Assembly (NCBI GenBank): GCA_022795155.1 | Contig: JAAWGF010000014.1 | Span: forward strand, 1 to 39,776 | DNA: 39,776 nucleotides | Reading direction: 5' to 3' | Source of the DNA: Bacilli bacterium | Lineage (GTDB): Bacteria > Bacillota_I > Bacilli_A > RF39 > UBA660 | In this document: one piece after another, positions 33,334 to 39,661 of the stretch | Layout: each line of letters starts with the position of its first letter | Position numbering within the stretch: position 1 is the first letter of the stretch | Made by a program: the position numbers and the translations under genes | The notes under the pieces: model-generated | The model's database searches: none | What the model was told of the DNA's origin: nothing | The model's input: only the letters and a program-made list of their open reading frames with translations

Positions 33334-34488
33334 CTAATCTATATAATTAAAATTATAACTATGATCATTAATTAATTTTAAAACTTTATCTTTTGCTTCA
33401 CCTTCTAAAACAGTTGGTTGAAAATTATTTGTATAATCAACGGAAGAAATAGACACAGGAATTAATTTTAAATTAGAATCTATATATTTATCATCTTCAA
33501 AATTAAATGTTACTTGCGCAATCATCGAATTTTTATCATTTGGATTACTATGACCTCCATAACAAAAGTTTCCTAATGAATAAAAAATATATTTACCATT
33601 GTATTCTTCTACCCCTTGTAAAATATGTGGGTGATGTCCGACAATTAAATCAGCCCCATTATCAATCGCATAATGCGCTAATTCTTGTTTTATTGTATCA
33701 AAATCATAATCATATTCAATTCCACCATGTAAGGTTATAATTTTAATATCAACATTATTTTCTTCAAAATATTCTAAAGCTTTATCTATTTCATTTTTAG
33801 TATAAAGATTAAAAGCTTTAAAGCCTGCAAAACCAAATTTTATTCCATTAATATCTTCAATATGAAAATTATTATTATTAAAGTAAGCAATATTATTTTC
33901 TTTTAAAATATTAACTGTATCATTATACCCAGTTTCTCCATAATCTCTAATGTGATTATTTGATAAATTAGCGGCTTCTACGCCACCACTAGTTAATATA
34001 TTAATATAGTCTGGTCGACCTTTAAATATAAATGGTTTTTGCTCATTAATATTAGTTGAATCAGTAAGTGGTCCTTCTAAATTAACAACTGTATAATCGT
34101 CATTTTCAAAAATATTTTTTACATTTTGAAAATAATAAGCATAGTCTTGTTGTTTATCAAATAAAACATCAAAAGCTCTATTTTGACTCGTTAAATAAGT
34201 CCCTAGTGTGCAATCCCCCGTAAAACTAATGGTAATAGATTCTTTATTTACTATTGGCTCTTTTTCTTCAAATTTAGAAGTAATATCACTTGTAGATTGT
34301 GTTGTTTCTAATAGTGTTTCTGTATCCAAAACTCTTTCTATTTCCCTCTTCGTTTCTAAACTTTCACTTACAATACTTCCTTTTGTTTCATAATTATGCT
34401 CAATACTTCCATCAACCCTTTTACAAGACGATAATGATACCGTTGTCAATAGGATCAATAATCCACTATATATTCGCAATTTTTTCAT
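33334..34488 (-). CDS. CapA family lipoprotein (metallophosphatase fold)
   Basis: A 384-residue exported protein of the CapA/PgsA poly-gamma-glutamate family. ATG 34488 (MKKLRIYSGLLILL) follows GGGGG; lipobox LSSC. A Thr/Ser/Glu-rich linker (about 22-85) leads to the calcineurin-like domain with SFTGDCTLG, VVNLEGPL, NLSNNHIRDYGETG, TLHGGIEYDY and VGHHPHILQG, whose Asp, Asn and His form a two-metal site. The usual neighbours CapB and CapC are absent, so capsule synthesis is not implied; related proteins may act on cell-wall or other polymers. It has a consensus promoter and is followed by the LRR gene. Confidence 0.9.
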   Translation of the reverse strand: MKKLRIYSGLLILLTTVSLSSCKRVDGSIEHNYETKGSIVSESLETKREIERVLDTETLLETTQSTSDITSKFEEKEPIVNKESITISFTGDCTLGTYLTSQNRAFDVLFDKQQDYAYYFQNVKNIFENDDYTVVNLEGPLTDSTNINEQKPFIFKGRPDYINILTSGGVEAANLSNNHIRDYGETGYNDTVNILKENNIAYFNNNNFHIEDINGIKFGFAGFKAFNLYTKNEIDKALEYFEENNVDIKIITLHGGIEYDYDFDTIKQELAHYAIDNGADLIVGHHPHILQGVEEYNGKYIFYSLGNFCYGGHSNPNDKNSMIAQVTFNFEDDKYIDSNLKLIPVSISSVDYTNNFQPTVLEGEAKDKVLKLINDHSYNFNYID

Positions 34489-34513
34489 ATAATAACCCCC
34501 ATTTGTGCCTGTT

Positions 34514-34542
34514 ATTATAACACTAATAAATAAAGAAGTCAA
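34514..34542 (-). promoter_or_regulatory. Promoter of the capA-LRR unit
   Basis: TTGACT, exactly 17 bases, TATAAT, with TGT before the -10, on the minus strand. Confidence 0.75.
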
Positions 34543-34552
34543 AGTAATCAAT

Positions 34553-34576
34553 AAAAAAAGCAATCATTTAGATTGC
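34553..34576 (-). terminator. Terminator of the ireB-mltG-O-methyltransferase unit
   Basis: On the minus strand GCAATC pairs with GATTGC around a 5-base loop, followed by seven T; it overlaps the O-methyltransferase stop codon. Confidence 0.8.
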
Positions 34577-36527: not shown

Positions 36528-36954
36528 TATTAATTCTCCTTCTTTCTTTATCTAAATATGTTTGAAGTATAATATTAGCTGCTAGACTATCAATTTTTTT
36601 CTTCCTCTTTTTTCTTGAAATATCAGCCTCAAGCATGTAGTTTGTAGCTTCAACTGTTGATAATCTTTCATCTTGCATTACAACTTCAATATTTAAATTA
36701 CTTATTAATTTTTTTTGAAAATCAAGACAAATATTTGCCCTATCTCCAATCGTATTACTCATATTTTTGGGGAAACCCAAAACAATTTTAGAAACATCAT
36801 ATTCTTTAATAATTTTTTTTAATTCTCGCAAAACACTATCATAATCTCCTTCATTAAAATGTATAGTTGTATAAGTTGAAGCAATTGTTCGCGTTGCATC
36901 ACTTAAAGATATTCCTAATGTTCTACTACCTAAATCAAGTCCTAAATATCTCAT
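36520..36954 (-). CDS. ruvX: Holliday junction resolvase-like protein RuvX/YqgF
   Basis: RNase H-fold nuclease family (YqgF), linked in other bacteria to 16S rRNA 5'-end maturation and to junction resolution. 144 residues. Signatures: YLGLDLGSRTLGISLSD at the start, VLGFPKNMSNTIGDRA, and MQDERLSTVEATNYM with KKKIDSLAANIILQTYL. The catalytic Asp and Glu are present. The ATG overlaps the stop of ireB (ATGA). Confidence 0.95.
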   Translation of the reverse strand: MRYLGLDLGSRTLGISLSDATRTIASTYTTIHFNEGDYDSVLRELKKIIKEYDVSKIVLGFPKNMSNTIGDRANICLDFQKKLISNLNIEVVMQDERLSTVEATNYMLEADISRKKRKKKIDSLAANIILQTYLDKERRRINNE

Positions 36955-37193
36955 TTGTTTAAGTACTCATTAATTATAAATGCTAATAAATCTGAGCGAT
37001 TGATACTTAATATTTTTTTTCGGGCATCCCTATAACTAGAAATATAACCAGGATCACCACTCATTAAATAACCAACCAATTGGTTAATAGGGTTATAACC
37101 TCTTTCTGATAAAATAGCAACAACCTCTTTAAATATGGCTCCTATCAAAGCCTGTTTAAAAATTTTTGAGTCATAAACTTTTGTTTCTTCCAT
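36951..37193 (-). CDS. ireB: IreB family regulatory phosphoprotein
   Basis: An 80-residue protein of the UPF0297/IreB family. In enterococci it is a substrate of a PASTA Ser/Thr kinase that controls cell-wall stress and cephalosporin resistance. The core is FKQALIGAIFKEVVAILSERGYNPINQLVGYL followed by SGDPGYISSYRDARKKI (family-diagnostic); residues before it, EETKVYDSK, include the Thr that is phosphorylated in relatives. ATG 37193 follows AGGTGA. It heads the operon; alaS, its common neighbour, is not here. Confidence 0.94.
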   Translation of the reverse strand: MEETKVYDSKIFKQALIGAIFKEVVAILSERGYNPINQLVGYLMSGDPGYISSYRDARKKILSINRSDLLAFIINEYLNK

Positions 37194-37252: not shown

Positions 37253-37280
37253 CTATTATGACAAAAATTTAATTAACAAA

Positions 37281-37313
37281 AAATTAAACCAGCTTATAAA
37301 CAGGTTTAATTTT
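37281..37313 (-). terminator. Terminator of the sigma-like gene
   Basis: On the minus strand AAATTAAACC pairs with GGTTTAATTT around a 13-base loop and runs into T; it lies seven bases after the stop codon. Confidence 0.7.
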
Positions 37314-37319
37314 AACTAA

Positions 37320-39623
37320 TCAATTAAGTGTCAAAAACTTTTGTCTATTATTGCTTTTTTCACATTCTATCAATCGCATTTTTAACTCTTCTATCTGTGC
37401 ATAACTAAATGTCTTTTCTTTTTCCTCATTATTTATAAAACAAATAATCTCTAGATAAATCCTAGCAGTTTCAATATCATTATTATTTAAACTTTGATTA
37501 AAATAACCAATACATTGTATACAATCAAATAACTCGCTAATATTATATCCCTCATTAATACCATTTAAAACAGAGCCAAGATTTTCAAAAGTATTTTTAT
37601 TATTTAGTAATTCTATATTTATTAGTGATTTTATAACAGATTCATATTTTAAGTATTCTTTTTCTTTCAAGTATTTATTAAGCAATTTATTAGCCTCAAC
37701 AAATTTATTGTTACTTAGACTTTCAATTATTTGGCTTATAATACCATTTTCTACAAAAGTTTTATTAAGACAATTATCATCTTCTTTTTTCATAGGCCCA
37801 ACATTATCAACAGGCGCTTTAATATCAATATTAACTATTTTATTTTTTGAGGAAGCTGAGTTTTCGCTTATATTACCATATGTTAATGCTATATTAATAT
37901 TTTTTATAACAATCTCTAATTTATCTCTTTGGGCCTTTGTTAATGGATATACGGCATTGCTATTCAAATCATTACCAAAGCGTAAATGCAACAACAATTT
38001 TTCATCTTCCGATAACTTATCTACCACTTTATCTACTTGTTCTACAGTATGCAACCTAAAATATTTATAAAAATTAGGAAAAATTAAATCTGATACTTTT
38101 ATATTTTTAACAACACTAGTAAATAATTTAAAAAAAGCATTCTTTTCTATCTCATTAAAATTCTCATTTACAAATAAATGTTTAGGATTAGTACTATCAT
38201 CATAATTTAAACAAGCAATTTTAATTTCTTCAAAATTTAAATCCATCAATGAATCATATATAAAAATTTTGTCATATTCTAAAATATACGAACTCAAAAT
38301 ATCTAATATTTTATTATCAATCTTACTAAATTTAATATCTTTATTTTCCTTTTGCCTTTTCTTTTCTAATAAATAATGATTGTTACATAAACTATAATGA
38401 ACTATATTCTTAGCAATACTATTTAAAACCGAAATAGGCATATTTCTAATAACTTTACTCTTATGAACGCAAAAAATCTGATAAGTACTATATTTGTTTT
38501 TAGTAAATAACTTATTATCATTAAATAAATCCTCATCATAATTATAACTATTAAGATTCTCCACAAATTTTTTCAAAGCTCTTGTTTCTAATTGTCTAAC
38601 TTCATCCGGAACAATACCAACTAACTCGCTAATTTTTTGGAGTGTAAGTCTATCAACTCCCTCTAATCCAAAGCGATAAATCAAAATATAAATATAGTTT
38701 ATTGGTAAATTACTACTATAAAGCAATTTGTATGACAATGCATTATTATTATCTACATCACTATCGATAAATTTTGTTGGAGCATCAGCTATTAAATCAA
38801 CAAGCTCAATAGAAGAGCCTTCATCATTTTTAATAATATTATTAAGACTAATAAAATCTTCTTTTAAACCATCAAATAAACAAATATCAAATTCATCCAT
38901 TTTAAGTTCTGTTTTTATTTCAGCAAAGTTAGGATTTCTTCCTAATTTTTCTTCTAACAATTTAACACTTTTACTATAATTTAATAATTTACTAGCCATA
39001 GCTACTCTAATATTGCCTTCTTTGGTATTAATAATTCTTTTTATAAAACCTTCTATACAATTACAAGCATATGTAGAAAATTGAACATTTTCAAAAATAT
39101 TAAAATTATCAACCGCATGAATCAAACCAAGTATTCCTTCAGAAATTAAATCATCAATGTCTACATTACCAAAACTATAATTAAATGCCACTTCATATAC
39201 AAGACCCTTATTATCCAAAATAACTTTATTTCTTGCCTCTTTATCTCCATTAGCAACTCTTAAAAATAATTCTATTTTTTCAATATCATCATGATATAAA
39301 GCTTGATAAAAATCAAGCAATGATAAAATAAATTTATTATCAATAAGTTCAACCATTGTATTGTCTTTTATTCTATAAAAATTAGAAATAATTACCGTTC
39401 TAACCATATTATATAAAAAATTATTATTTTGAAATAATAATTTAAATACATCTGTATTATAATCAATTTCACCAAATATGGACAATTTTTTTAGTTCATC
39501 TAAATATTCAAGCTTATTATTAAACAGCAAATTATTATTAATATAATCATTTAAAATATTATAAACCTCTATTGTTTTTTCCGAATACTCATCATTTTTA
39601 TTTTTAAATAATTCTTGCTTCAA
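37320..39623 (-). CDS. Very large sigma-70-like protein with a long C-terminal extension
   Basis: About 767 residues, roughly twice a normal sigma factor. The start is probably TTG 39623, because GGGAG is nine bases upstream; an ATG at 39632 directly abuts that site. Residues ~1-120 are a helical extension. Region 2 (about 125-212): GDKEARNKVILDNKGLVYEVA, DIDDLISEGILGLIHAVDNF and QFSTYAC, where the Trp pair of primary sigmas is replaced by NC. Region 3 (about 213-290): KLLEEKLGRNPNFAEIKTEL. Region 4 (about 310-360): YRFGLEG...LTLQKISELVGIVPDEVRQLETRALKKF, a good helix-turn-helix. Residues ~361-767 are not recognised; 534-583 (KLSEDEKLLLHLRFG) look like a second degenerate region 4, and the end is helical and TPR-like. 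Regulon unknown. Confidence 0.8.
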   Translation of the reverse strand: MKQELFKNKNDEYSEKTIEVYNILNDYINNNLLFNNKLEYLDELKKLSIFGEIDYNTDVFKLLFQNNNFLYNMVRTVIISNFYRIKDNTMVELIDNKFILSLLDFYQALYHDDIEKIELFLRVANGDKEARNKVILDNKGLVYEVAFNYSFGNVDIDDLISEGILGLIHAVDNFNIFENVQFSTYACNCIEGFIKRIINTKEGNIRVAMASKLLNYSKSVKLLEEKLGRNPNFAEIKTELKMDEFDICLFDGLKEDFISLNNIIKNDEGSSIELVDLIADAPTKFIDSDVDNNNALSYKLLYSSNLPINYIYILIYRFGLEGVDRLTLQKISELVGIVPDEVRQLETRALKKFVENLNSYNYDEDLFNDNKLFTKNKYSTYQIFCVHKSKVIRNMPISVLNSIAKNIVHYSLCNNHYLLEKKRQKENKDIKFSKIDNKILDILSSYILEYDKIFIYDSLMDLNFEEIKIACLNYDDSTNPKHLFVNENFNEIEKNAFFKLFTSVVKNIKVSDLIFPNFYKYFRLHTVEQVDKVVDKLSEDEKLLLHLRFGNDLNSNAVYPLTKAQRDKLEIVIKNINIALTYGNISENSASSKNKIVNIDIKAPVDNVGPMKKEDDNCLNKTFVENGIISQIIESLSNNKFVEANKLLNKYLKEKEYLKYESVIKSLINIELLNNKNTFENLGSVLNGINEGYNISELFDCIQCIGYFNQSLNNNDIETARIYLEIICFINNEEKEKTFSYAQIEELKMRLIECEKSNNRQKFLTLN

Positions 39624-39652
39624 AAAAACCATCTCCCATAAAATTTGTAAAT

Positions 39653-39661
39653 ATTATAACA
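39653..39661 (-). promoter_or_regulatory. Promoter of the sigma-like gene
   Basis: TGTTATAAT (extended -10) on the minus strand, about 30 bases before the probable start; no clear -35. Confidence 0.5.

Follow-up and report, generated by a model that had tools for sequence, protein, structure and literature searches.

A giant sigma-70-family protein with a degenerate second region 4 in an RF39 Bacilli bacterium

The window, by which we mean the whole 39,776-nucleotide stretch of DNA analysed here, encodes on its minus strand a giant sigma-70-family protein (P0001; gene at 37320-39623, 767 aa from a TTG start) that profile searches place as one member of a large, lineage-wide family of giant sigma factors, which is more than the first-pass annotation could see from this stretch. 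The family is recognised by psi-sigma4, a module of about 70 aa in which the first helix of sigma region 4 (sigma4) is retained and helix 2 of the helix-turn-helix (HTH) is replaced by a loop. It is without description in the protein-family libraries searched; among the matches listed from the open-licence PMC literature, searched by title and start of abstract, neither tandem sigma region 4 modules nor the giant sigmas of this lineage are described.

Few parts of bacterial transcription are as conserved as sigma factors, whose region 4 is normally single. A lineage that multiplies region 4, drops its DNA-reading helix and forms arrays of it would be a natural experiment on the faces of region 4, with its flap, anti-sigma and activator contacts at stake beyond promoter reading, and could show how bacteria with genomes of about 1-1.5 Mb diversify promoter control. 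As for P0001 itself, we lean towards an alternative sigma factor whose tail would dock proteins and control the activity of the holoenzyme.

The gene, its ortholog and its neighbourhood

Residues of P0001 are numbered as in the 770-aa product of the program-called ORF (37320-39632, minus strand), which begins at ATG 39632. The start given in the first-pass annotation, TTG 39623, appears to be the better one, since a ribosome-binding site GGGAG, read from the sequence (39633-39637, minus), lies 9 nt upstream of it, this arrangement is kept in L010, the ortholog in another genome of the same genus (G003), and the upstream frame is not kept: the poly-T run just before the TTG differs in length (T7 versus T6 between P0001 and L010), so that the codons upstream of the TTG fall out of frame between the two. 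The extended -10 element TGTTATAAT (39653-39661, minus), also present ahead of L010, is a candidate housekeeping-sigma promoter. In the window we count 14 occurrences of the pattern TGNTATAAT versus 7.76 expected, a number reached by 1 of 100 shuffles; -35/-10 pairs in the region were not above shuffles in the promoter scan (22 versus a mean of 27.0). Past the stop codon, a candidate intrinsic terminator (TTAAACC, a 12-nt loop, GGTTTAA and a T run; 37278-37309, minus) was read by eye, its loop exceeding the limit of the hairpin scan, from whose list it is absent. A promoter-like site ahead of ireB lies at 37252-37224, such sites being no commoner than in shuffles. The giant sigma gene probably forms a transcription unit of its own, read by the housekeeping sigma.

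The next gene downstream (36951-37193, minus) codes for the IreB regulatory phosphoprotein; it adjoins the ortholog in G003 too, and ireB was present in 9 of the 10 genomes searched. Upstream neighbours differ among the four ORFs checked by Pfam: a class I tRNA synthetase with a ValRS C-terminal arm (G150), a DUF285/LRR protein (G001), AlaRS (G046) and a type IV prepilin peptidase (G012). We also asked whether the gene had been inserted between ireB and a constant upstream neighbour, and rejected this because that neighbour varies among these four. Elsewhere in the window, the product of 33334-34563, close to the mltG gene, has a PGA_cap domain (capsule synthesis, CapA-like); no non-coding RNA or tRNA was found in the window. 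The source assembly amounts to 1.43 Mb in 45 contigs and is 90% complete.

The ortholog L010 is 68% identical to P0001 and ends soon after psi-sigma4, without the helical tail that closes P0001 and with no tail remnant before ireB; the tail is therefore dispensable for whatever both proteins do. Between the two species the giant sigma gene is, by its substitution pattern, under purifying selection, with dN 0.204 versus dS 0.474 overall (dN/dS about 0.43) and the lowest dN in region 2 (0.079, dS 0.367, dN/dS 0.2; 72 of 87 residues identical); elsewhere, identity is 45/75 in psi-sigma4 and 107/155 in the insert that precedes it. One could take P0001 for a giant-sigma duplicate that is decaying and no longer has a function, as the gene was found in two of the three genus genomes searched, the ortholog differs in length, and a long branch (1.23, in a core tree built by a quick method with 42 of its 78 inner branches open) leads to the P0001/L010 pair. 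Decay is nonetheless very unlikely in our judgement, given reading frames intact in two species at this identity, the dN/dS values above, and a promoter element and start site that are both conserved. P0001 is a fast-evolving, genus-restricted family member with altered promoter-contact residues, and looks like a working but re-specialised protein.

The sigma core and its promoter-contact residues

Sigma regions 2, 3 and 4 had been recognised on first reading in a protein running on to about residue 767, and this holds: about 400 residues lie beyond the core, and the Pfam models of regions 2 and 4 score over their cut-offs (Sigma70_r2 at 140-199, 34.4 bits versus 24; Sigma70_r4 at 316-355, 27.4 bits versus 24.1). 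Region 2 covers residues 118-204 (39021-39281, minus), region 3 residues 205-283 (38784-39020, minus) and region 4 residues 300-360 (38553-38735, minus), the last with a complete HTH and altered recognition-helix residues. Region 3 is placed by the NCBIfam alignment and the AlphaFold model. The NCBIfam sigma models (RpoS/RpoD) align without break over 118-369, the region 3 stretch included; the Pfam region 3 model is unreported for P0001 and remains below its cut-off in L010 (21.5 bits versus 25.3), and an in-house region 3 profile gives 88 bits on L010, itself among the rows of that profile. The best PDB sequence match of P0001 is RpoS (9.4e-21), and region 2 of the AlphaFold model superposes on the RpoS fragment 5h6x_A (Z 15.9, rmsd 1.2, 92 aligned residues). 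Foldseek/VIA structure searching found the sigma core alone, the VIA rows spanning 115-365. The model of the whole protein has a mean pLDDT of 59.9 and a pTM of 0.31, with good blocks in the N-terminal domain, core and psi-sigma4 and a poorly modelled insert and tail.

For the promoter-contact residues we use E. coli numbering with the contact roles that we take these positions to have, Q406, N409, D403 and E407 being presumably core-contact positions. The reported loss of the Trp pair of region 2.3 is real: the equivalents of W433, W434, Q437 and T440 are N191, C192, G195 and K198. Among 27 relatives, W434 is kept in 26, Q437 in 25, T440 in 17 and W433 in 13. R584 and R586, kept in 23 and 25 of them, are altered in P0001 as well, as are Q406 (kept in 25/27) and N409 (26/27); the latter two read S and I, so that core binding of P0001 may be weak. 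The equivalents of F427, Y430, D403, E407 and R588 are retained.

As a special mark of this protein, on the other hand, the Trp loss does not stand, most of the other sigmas displayed from the same genome being without the pair too. Among the six displayed, both Trp occur in the primary SigA (L001) alone; the 798-aa giant L002 retains one, and the SigE-like L003, the SigF/G-like L005, the SigH-like L006 and L008 have neither. The SigK-like L004, outside this display, reads TTYCARCIENEI, also without Trp. The SigE-, SigK-, SigF/G- and SigH-like families are active sigmas; since these sporulation-type factors of the same genome are without the pair, its loss is not by itself a loss of activity. 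Pfam region 2 was found in nine places of this genome, which include SigA and the four types just named, a set that fits the published statement that the uncultured order RF39 retains many sporulation genes (PMC10868615). The remaining sigma of the display, L008 (1264-2298; G000:C7 21047-21235), is a second RpoD-like protein, of 345 aa, whose gene and that of the primary sigma lie about 10 kb apart; its region 2.3 reads SYAQLCIYRHI.

A decoy or brake would bind core polymerase or its flap through sigma-derived modules, be unable to melt promoters and lower SigA transcription under some condition. Such a role would agree with the changes at the -10 reading/melting and -35 recognition-helix positions (N191, C192, G195, K198, P342 and E344), with the retention of W434, Q437, R584 and R586 in at least 23 of the 27 relatives, and with the first sigma4 helix being all that psi-sigma4 retains; it agrees less well with the retained equivalents of Y430, F427, E407 and D403, and with the sporulation-type factors that are likewise devoid of the Trp pair. 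We regard the decoy as unlikely, and keep the alternative sigma factor as our preferred reading.

Appended modules and the family of giant sigmas

P0001 begins with an all-helical N-terminal domain (NTD; residues 18-112; 39297-39581, minus) common to other giant sigmas, and in the alignment the greater part of region 1.2 is absent from it; an NTD profile built without P0001 scores 21.0 bits on it versus 8.3 for the best of 2000 shuffles. Region 4 is followed by the insert (residues 361-515; 38088-38552, minus), which has a clear relative in the same-genus ortholog only and a low-confidence helical model, and then by psi-sigma4 (residues 516-590; 37863-38087, minus). A second, degenerate region 4 had been suspected at about 534-583; the psi-sigma4 profile, built without P0001 and L010, locates it at 522-572 with a score of 41.1 bits; none of 2000 shuffles exceeded 11.9.

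In the AlphaFold model, the module consists of helices 521-525, 530-538 and 542-552, a loop at 553-565 and a helix at 566-585 (pLDDT 69-90 in ten-residue blocks); the loop takes the place of HTH helix 2, which is also missing from the model of the relative L098 (loop 559-571). The consensus of twelve proteins reads TIYxxFxxYTKEQVDxVLxKLxEEEKxLLxLRYGxDLxxPxxxKLTKxQxxxFYxxLIPKMxxxL. Among PDB sequences the module matches SigA region 4 best (7l7b, 7e-4; 4g8x, 0.0024), with an alignment limited to the first helix, and a profile-profile comparison with sigma4 gives E 7.6e-6 and a probability of 84% over 31 columns, again the first helix. Judged by these matches, psi-sigma4 derives from sigma4. Mean net charge among the named relatives is +0.1 for psi-sigma4 (n=53), +4.7 for sigma4 (n=32) and -1.3 for sigma4c, the terminal module of the giants (n=42). 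As HTH helix 2 is absent from the models and the module is charge-neutral across relatives, psi-sigma4 has, on sequence and model, lost marks of DNA binding.

The TPR-like helical end described earlier is borne out by a helical-repeat module at residues 628-741 (37410-37751, minus), also present in TPR proteins and in the giant sigma L150 (5486-8038); P0001 itself, though, matches none of the Pfam TPR models. A search with residues 600-770 matched proteins in 14 of 117 family genomes at E <= 0.01, its own genome included, with a best E outside it of 2.0e-7 (per genome). The reverse profile gives 68.4 bits on P0001 628-741 versus 15.5 for the best shuffle; as its rows were found using P0001, the independent evidence is the 600-770 search. 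The best E of the tail against PDB sequences was 0.2. Among the tail-bearing proteins, Pfam TPR is over cut-off in L147 (856 aa), L151 (790 aa) and L152 (783 aa), R3H is over cut-off in L151 and under it in L147, and an AbiEi-like N-terminal HTH is over cut-off in L152 and under it in L147 and L151, which also match PADLOC AbiEi models; Pfam gave no match in an 801-aa protein of L148 and a 500-aa one of L149, and a match under cut-off only in a 659-aa one of L148. L150 (851 aa) is a giant sigma with Pfam regions 2 and 4, to which in-house profiles add psi-sigma4, the tail module, two more psi-sigma4 and sigma4c. At three loci (L147 3412-8768, L149 3220-9404, L150 3133-8038), a weak-TPR protein of 321-334 aa and a tail-module protein are encoded close to giant or tailed sigma genes and form a possible partner set.

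Counted from the rows listed, 42 of the 193 genomes sampled from the same bacterial family have strong psi-sigma4 matches (E <= 1e-8); at E <= 1e-3 the count is 83/193, with many weak matches of about 20 bits, and a second, order-level sample gave 41 of 146 genomes at 1e-8. In a phylum sample of 392 genomes, 19 of which belong to the same family, none of the others (about 373) rose above 26.2 bits, versus 91.6 bits for the window, itself a row of that model; the outside matches up to this level are partial, and the open frames that contain them measure 147-584 aa, in most cases about 240 or 390-470 aa.

Psi-sigma4 occurs in NTD-sigma2-sigma3-sigma4 proteins with one to seven psi-sigma4 and a sigma4c (about 700-1350 aa), in SigE/SigK-like cores with the same tail, and in sigma-less arrays. 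In 49 named loci taken from GTDB genomes, mostly of uncultured Bacilli from the gut of rabbit (Lapin), ruminants and chicken (Candidatus Faecisoma, Candidatus Scybalousia), 45 proteins combine sigma2 with psi-sigma4. The class I/II count excludes 3 of these 45, in which sigma4c does not exceed 40 bits. Of the other 42 cores, 30 are SigA-like and 12 SigE/SigK-like; one of the latter, L104, scores 191.4 bits with the SigK model, below its cut-off of 252. The tail tree splits the 12 class II tails (7 changes), but at p-AU 0.138 a swapping of tails between the two core types is no more than a possibility. L087 (1347 aa) carries NTD, sigma2, sigma3 and sigma4, seven psi-sigma4 and two sigma4c. The sigma-less proteins have 14 or more repeats: L084 (1563-6206; 1548 aa) has 14 psi-sigma4 and no sigma2, and two of L085 (1569-7160 and 7250-11953; 1864 and 1568 aa) are psi-sigma4-repeat proteins with weak scores. 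Giants stand in tandem on several contigs, with four consecutive sigma genes in L089 for example. Two further loci (L018 1051-3741, L035 517-2694) fuse a sigma core to five and three helicase-associated (HA, PF03457) domains, respectively. The contig L102, with a giant sigma of the Bacilli family, sits in a record titled uncultured Methanobrevibacter sp., which is probably a binning error.

The giants are additional to a normal primary sigma, 359 aa in the window's own genome; the usual primary-sigma length noted on first reading is confirmed, frames in the family being mostly 358-396 aa among the rows listed. In relatives, sigma4c is modelled with a complete HTH, and its match to SigA region 4 runs along its length. 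No sigma4c was found in L010 and none aligned in P0001, which ends in its helical-repeat tail. By sequence, P0001 counts as a diverged member, or else a near relative, of the giant psi-sigma4 sigma family, since NTD and psi-sigma4 are present and the terminal sigma4c is absent.

The extra sigma4-like modules could also be further DNA-binding arms acting on several -35-like or upstream elements, for multi-site promoter recognition. The complete HTH of sigma4c and the up to seven psi-sigma4 per sigma would suit such arms, as would the L084 array, whose 13 regular repeats are near-identical save for one block at the former HTH turn (pN/pS 0.355/0.309 in this block, picked after seeing the data, versus 0.095/0.307 elsewhere). 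One has to keep in mind that a pN/pS near 1 is also expected under relaxed constraint, and that this block is diversifying is only a hint. With psi-sigma4 devoid of HTH helix 2 and charge-neutral, sigma4c slightly negative, and the window protein without sigma4c, we hold DNA-binding arms to be quite unlikely.

A broader and tentative idea, which we think unlikely, is that region 4 has become a repeat module in this lineage, its tandem psi-sigma4 units occurring alike with SigA-like cores, with SigE/SigK-like cores and in sigma-less proteins: the arrays would be docking arrays whose exposed turn diversifies on a constant scaffold, that is, expandable polymerase- or partner-binding scaffolds forming a new layer of transcription control, and P0001 would be a divergent case with a single unit and an added TPR-like arm.

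Proposed function and comparison with known systems

To return to the preferred alternative sigma factor, its modules (helical N-domain, sigma2-sigma3-sigma4 core, psi-sigma4, helical-repeat tail), as identified by sequence and model, homology, charge and conservation, would work as follows. Regions 2 and 4 would recruit core RNA polymerase, and the altered promoter-reading residues may give a promoter preference different from, or weaker than, that of SigA. Psi-sigma4 and the helical tail would dock proteins rather than read DNA, the docked partner being a regulator, or the polymerase flap in competition with the protein's own sigma4; its binding might switch the holoenzyme on or off, or bias its activity. 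Docking is ascribed to the tail because of its TPR association alone, tail homologues having no known function. The first-pass annotation had proposed an alternative sigma with a built-in regulator or sensor: the intact core and docking-like tail modules fit the regulator, and the sensor lacks a counterpart, as Pfam found no ligand-binding domain in P0001.

P0001 has the sigma2-sigma3-sigma4 core of primary and group 2 sigma-70 factors (SigA/RpoD, RpoS), RpoS being its best PDB sequence match, but differs from them by the absence of a complete region 1.2, by altered -10/-35 contact residues and by the roughly 400 additional residues that carry psi-sigma4 and the helical tail. It scores 79.2 bits with the NCBIfam RpoD equivalog NF006666 (cut-off 572), which L001 of its own genome passes with 577.4 bits.

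MzaA of the MZA anti-phage system is likewise a large protein with a SigA-like core, but its extra residues precede the core (core match 452-701 of 726 in the profile) whereas those of P0001 mostly follow. P0001 could be an MzaA-like sigma factor of a defence or mobile element, MzaA being among its NCBIfam matches and its sole PADLOC match, and some tail-sharing proteins having the AbiEi-like HTH. The MzaA score, however, is 85.8 bits versus a cut-off of 800 and is confined to the common sigma core; the psi-sigma4/sigma4c tail is unmatched in phage and plasmid records (for the relative L011, no match in 50,697 phage records), no relatives were found in viral contigs, and housekeeping-type families account for eight of the nine neighbours tested at related loci, the ninth having no match. 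An MzaA-like origin seems to us highly improbable. A viral or plasmid origin was also considered and set aside, IMG/VR yielding no relatives with tail alignment A3 or P0001 and the tail being absent from phage and plasmid records. P0001 matches 114 phage records, the best 10 of which lie in or near the sigma core. The phage family phrog_351 (a 928-position RNA polymerase sigma factor) is another large sigma, matched by P0001 116-390 at 2.6e-34, a match that covers the sigma core.

ECF cores are without region 3, and P0001 is not an ECF42 member because its core has this region (models continuous over 118-369). A C-terminal extension with a proposed regulatory role is nevertheless common ground with ECF42 and ECF41. 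The P0001 extension contains a sigma4-derived module, unmentioned for the ECF ones in the part of the source consulted, where ECF41 factors have a SnoaL-like extension and that of ECF42 is helical and TPR-type, needed for activity and thought to act via protein interaction (PMC8999054). By analogy, ECF42 may thus serve as the nearest working model of how the P0001 tail would exert control.
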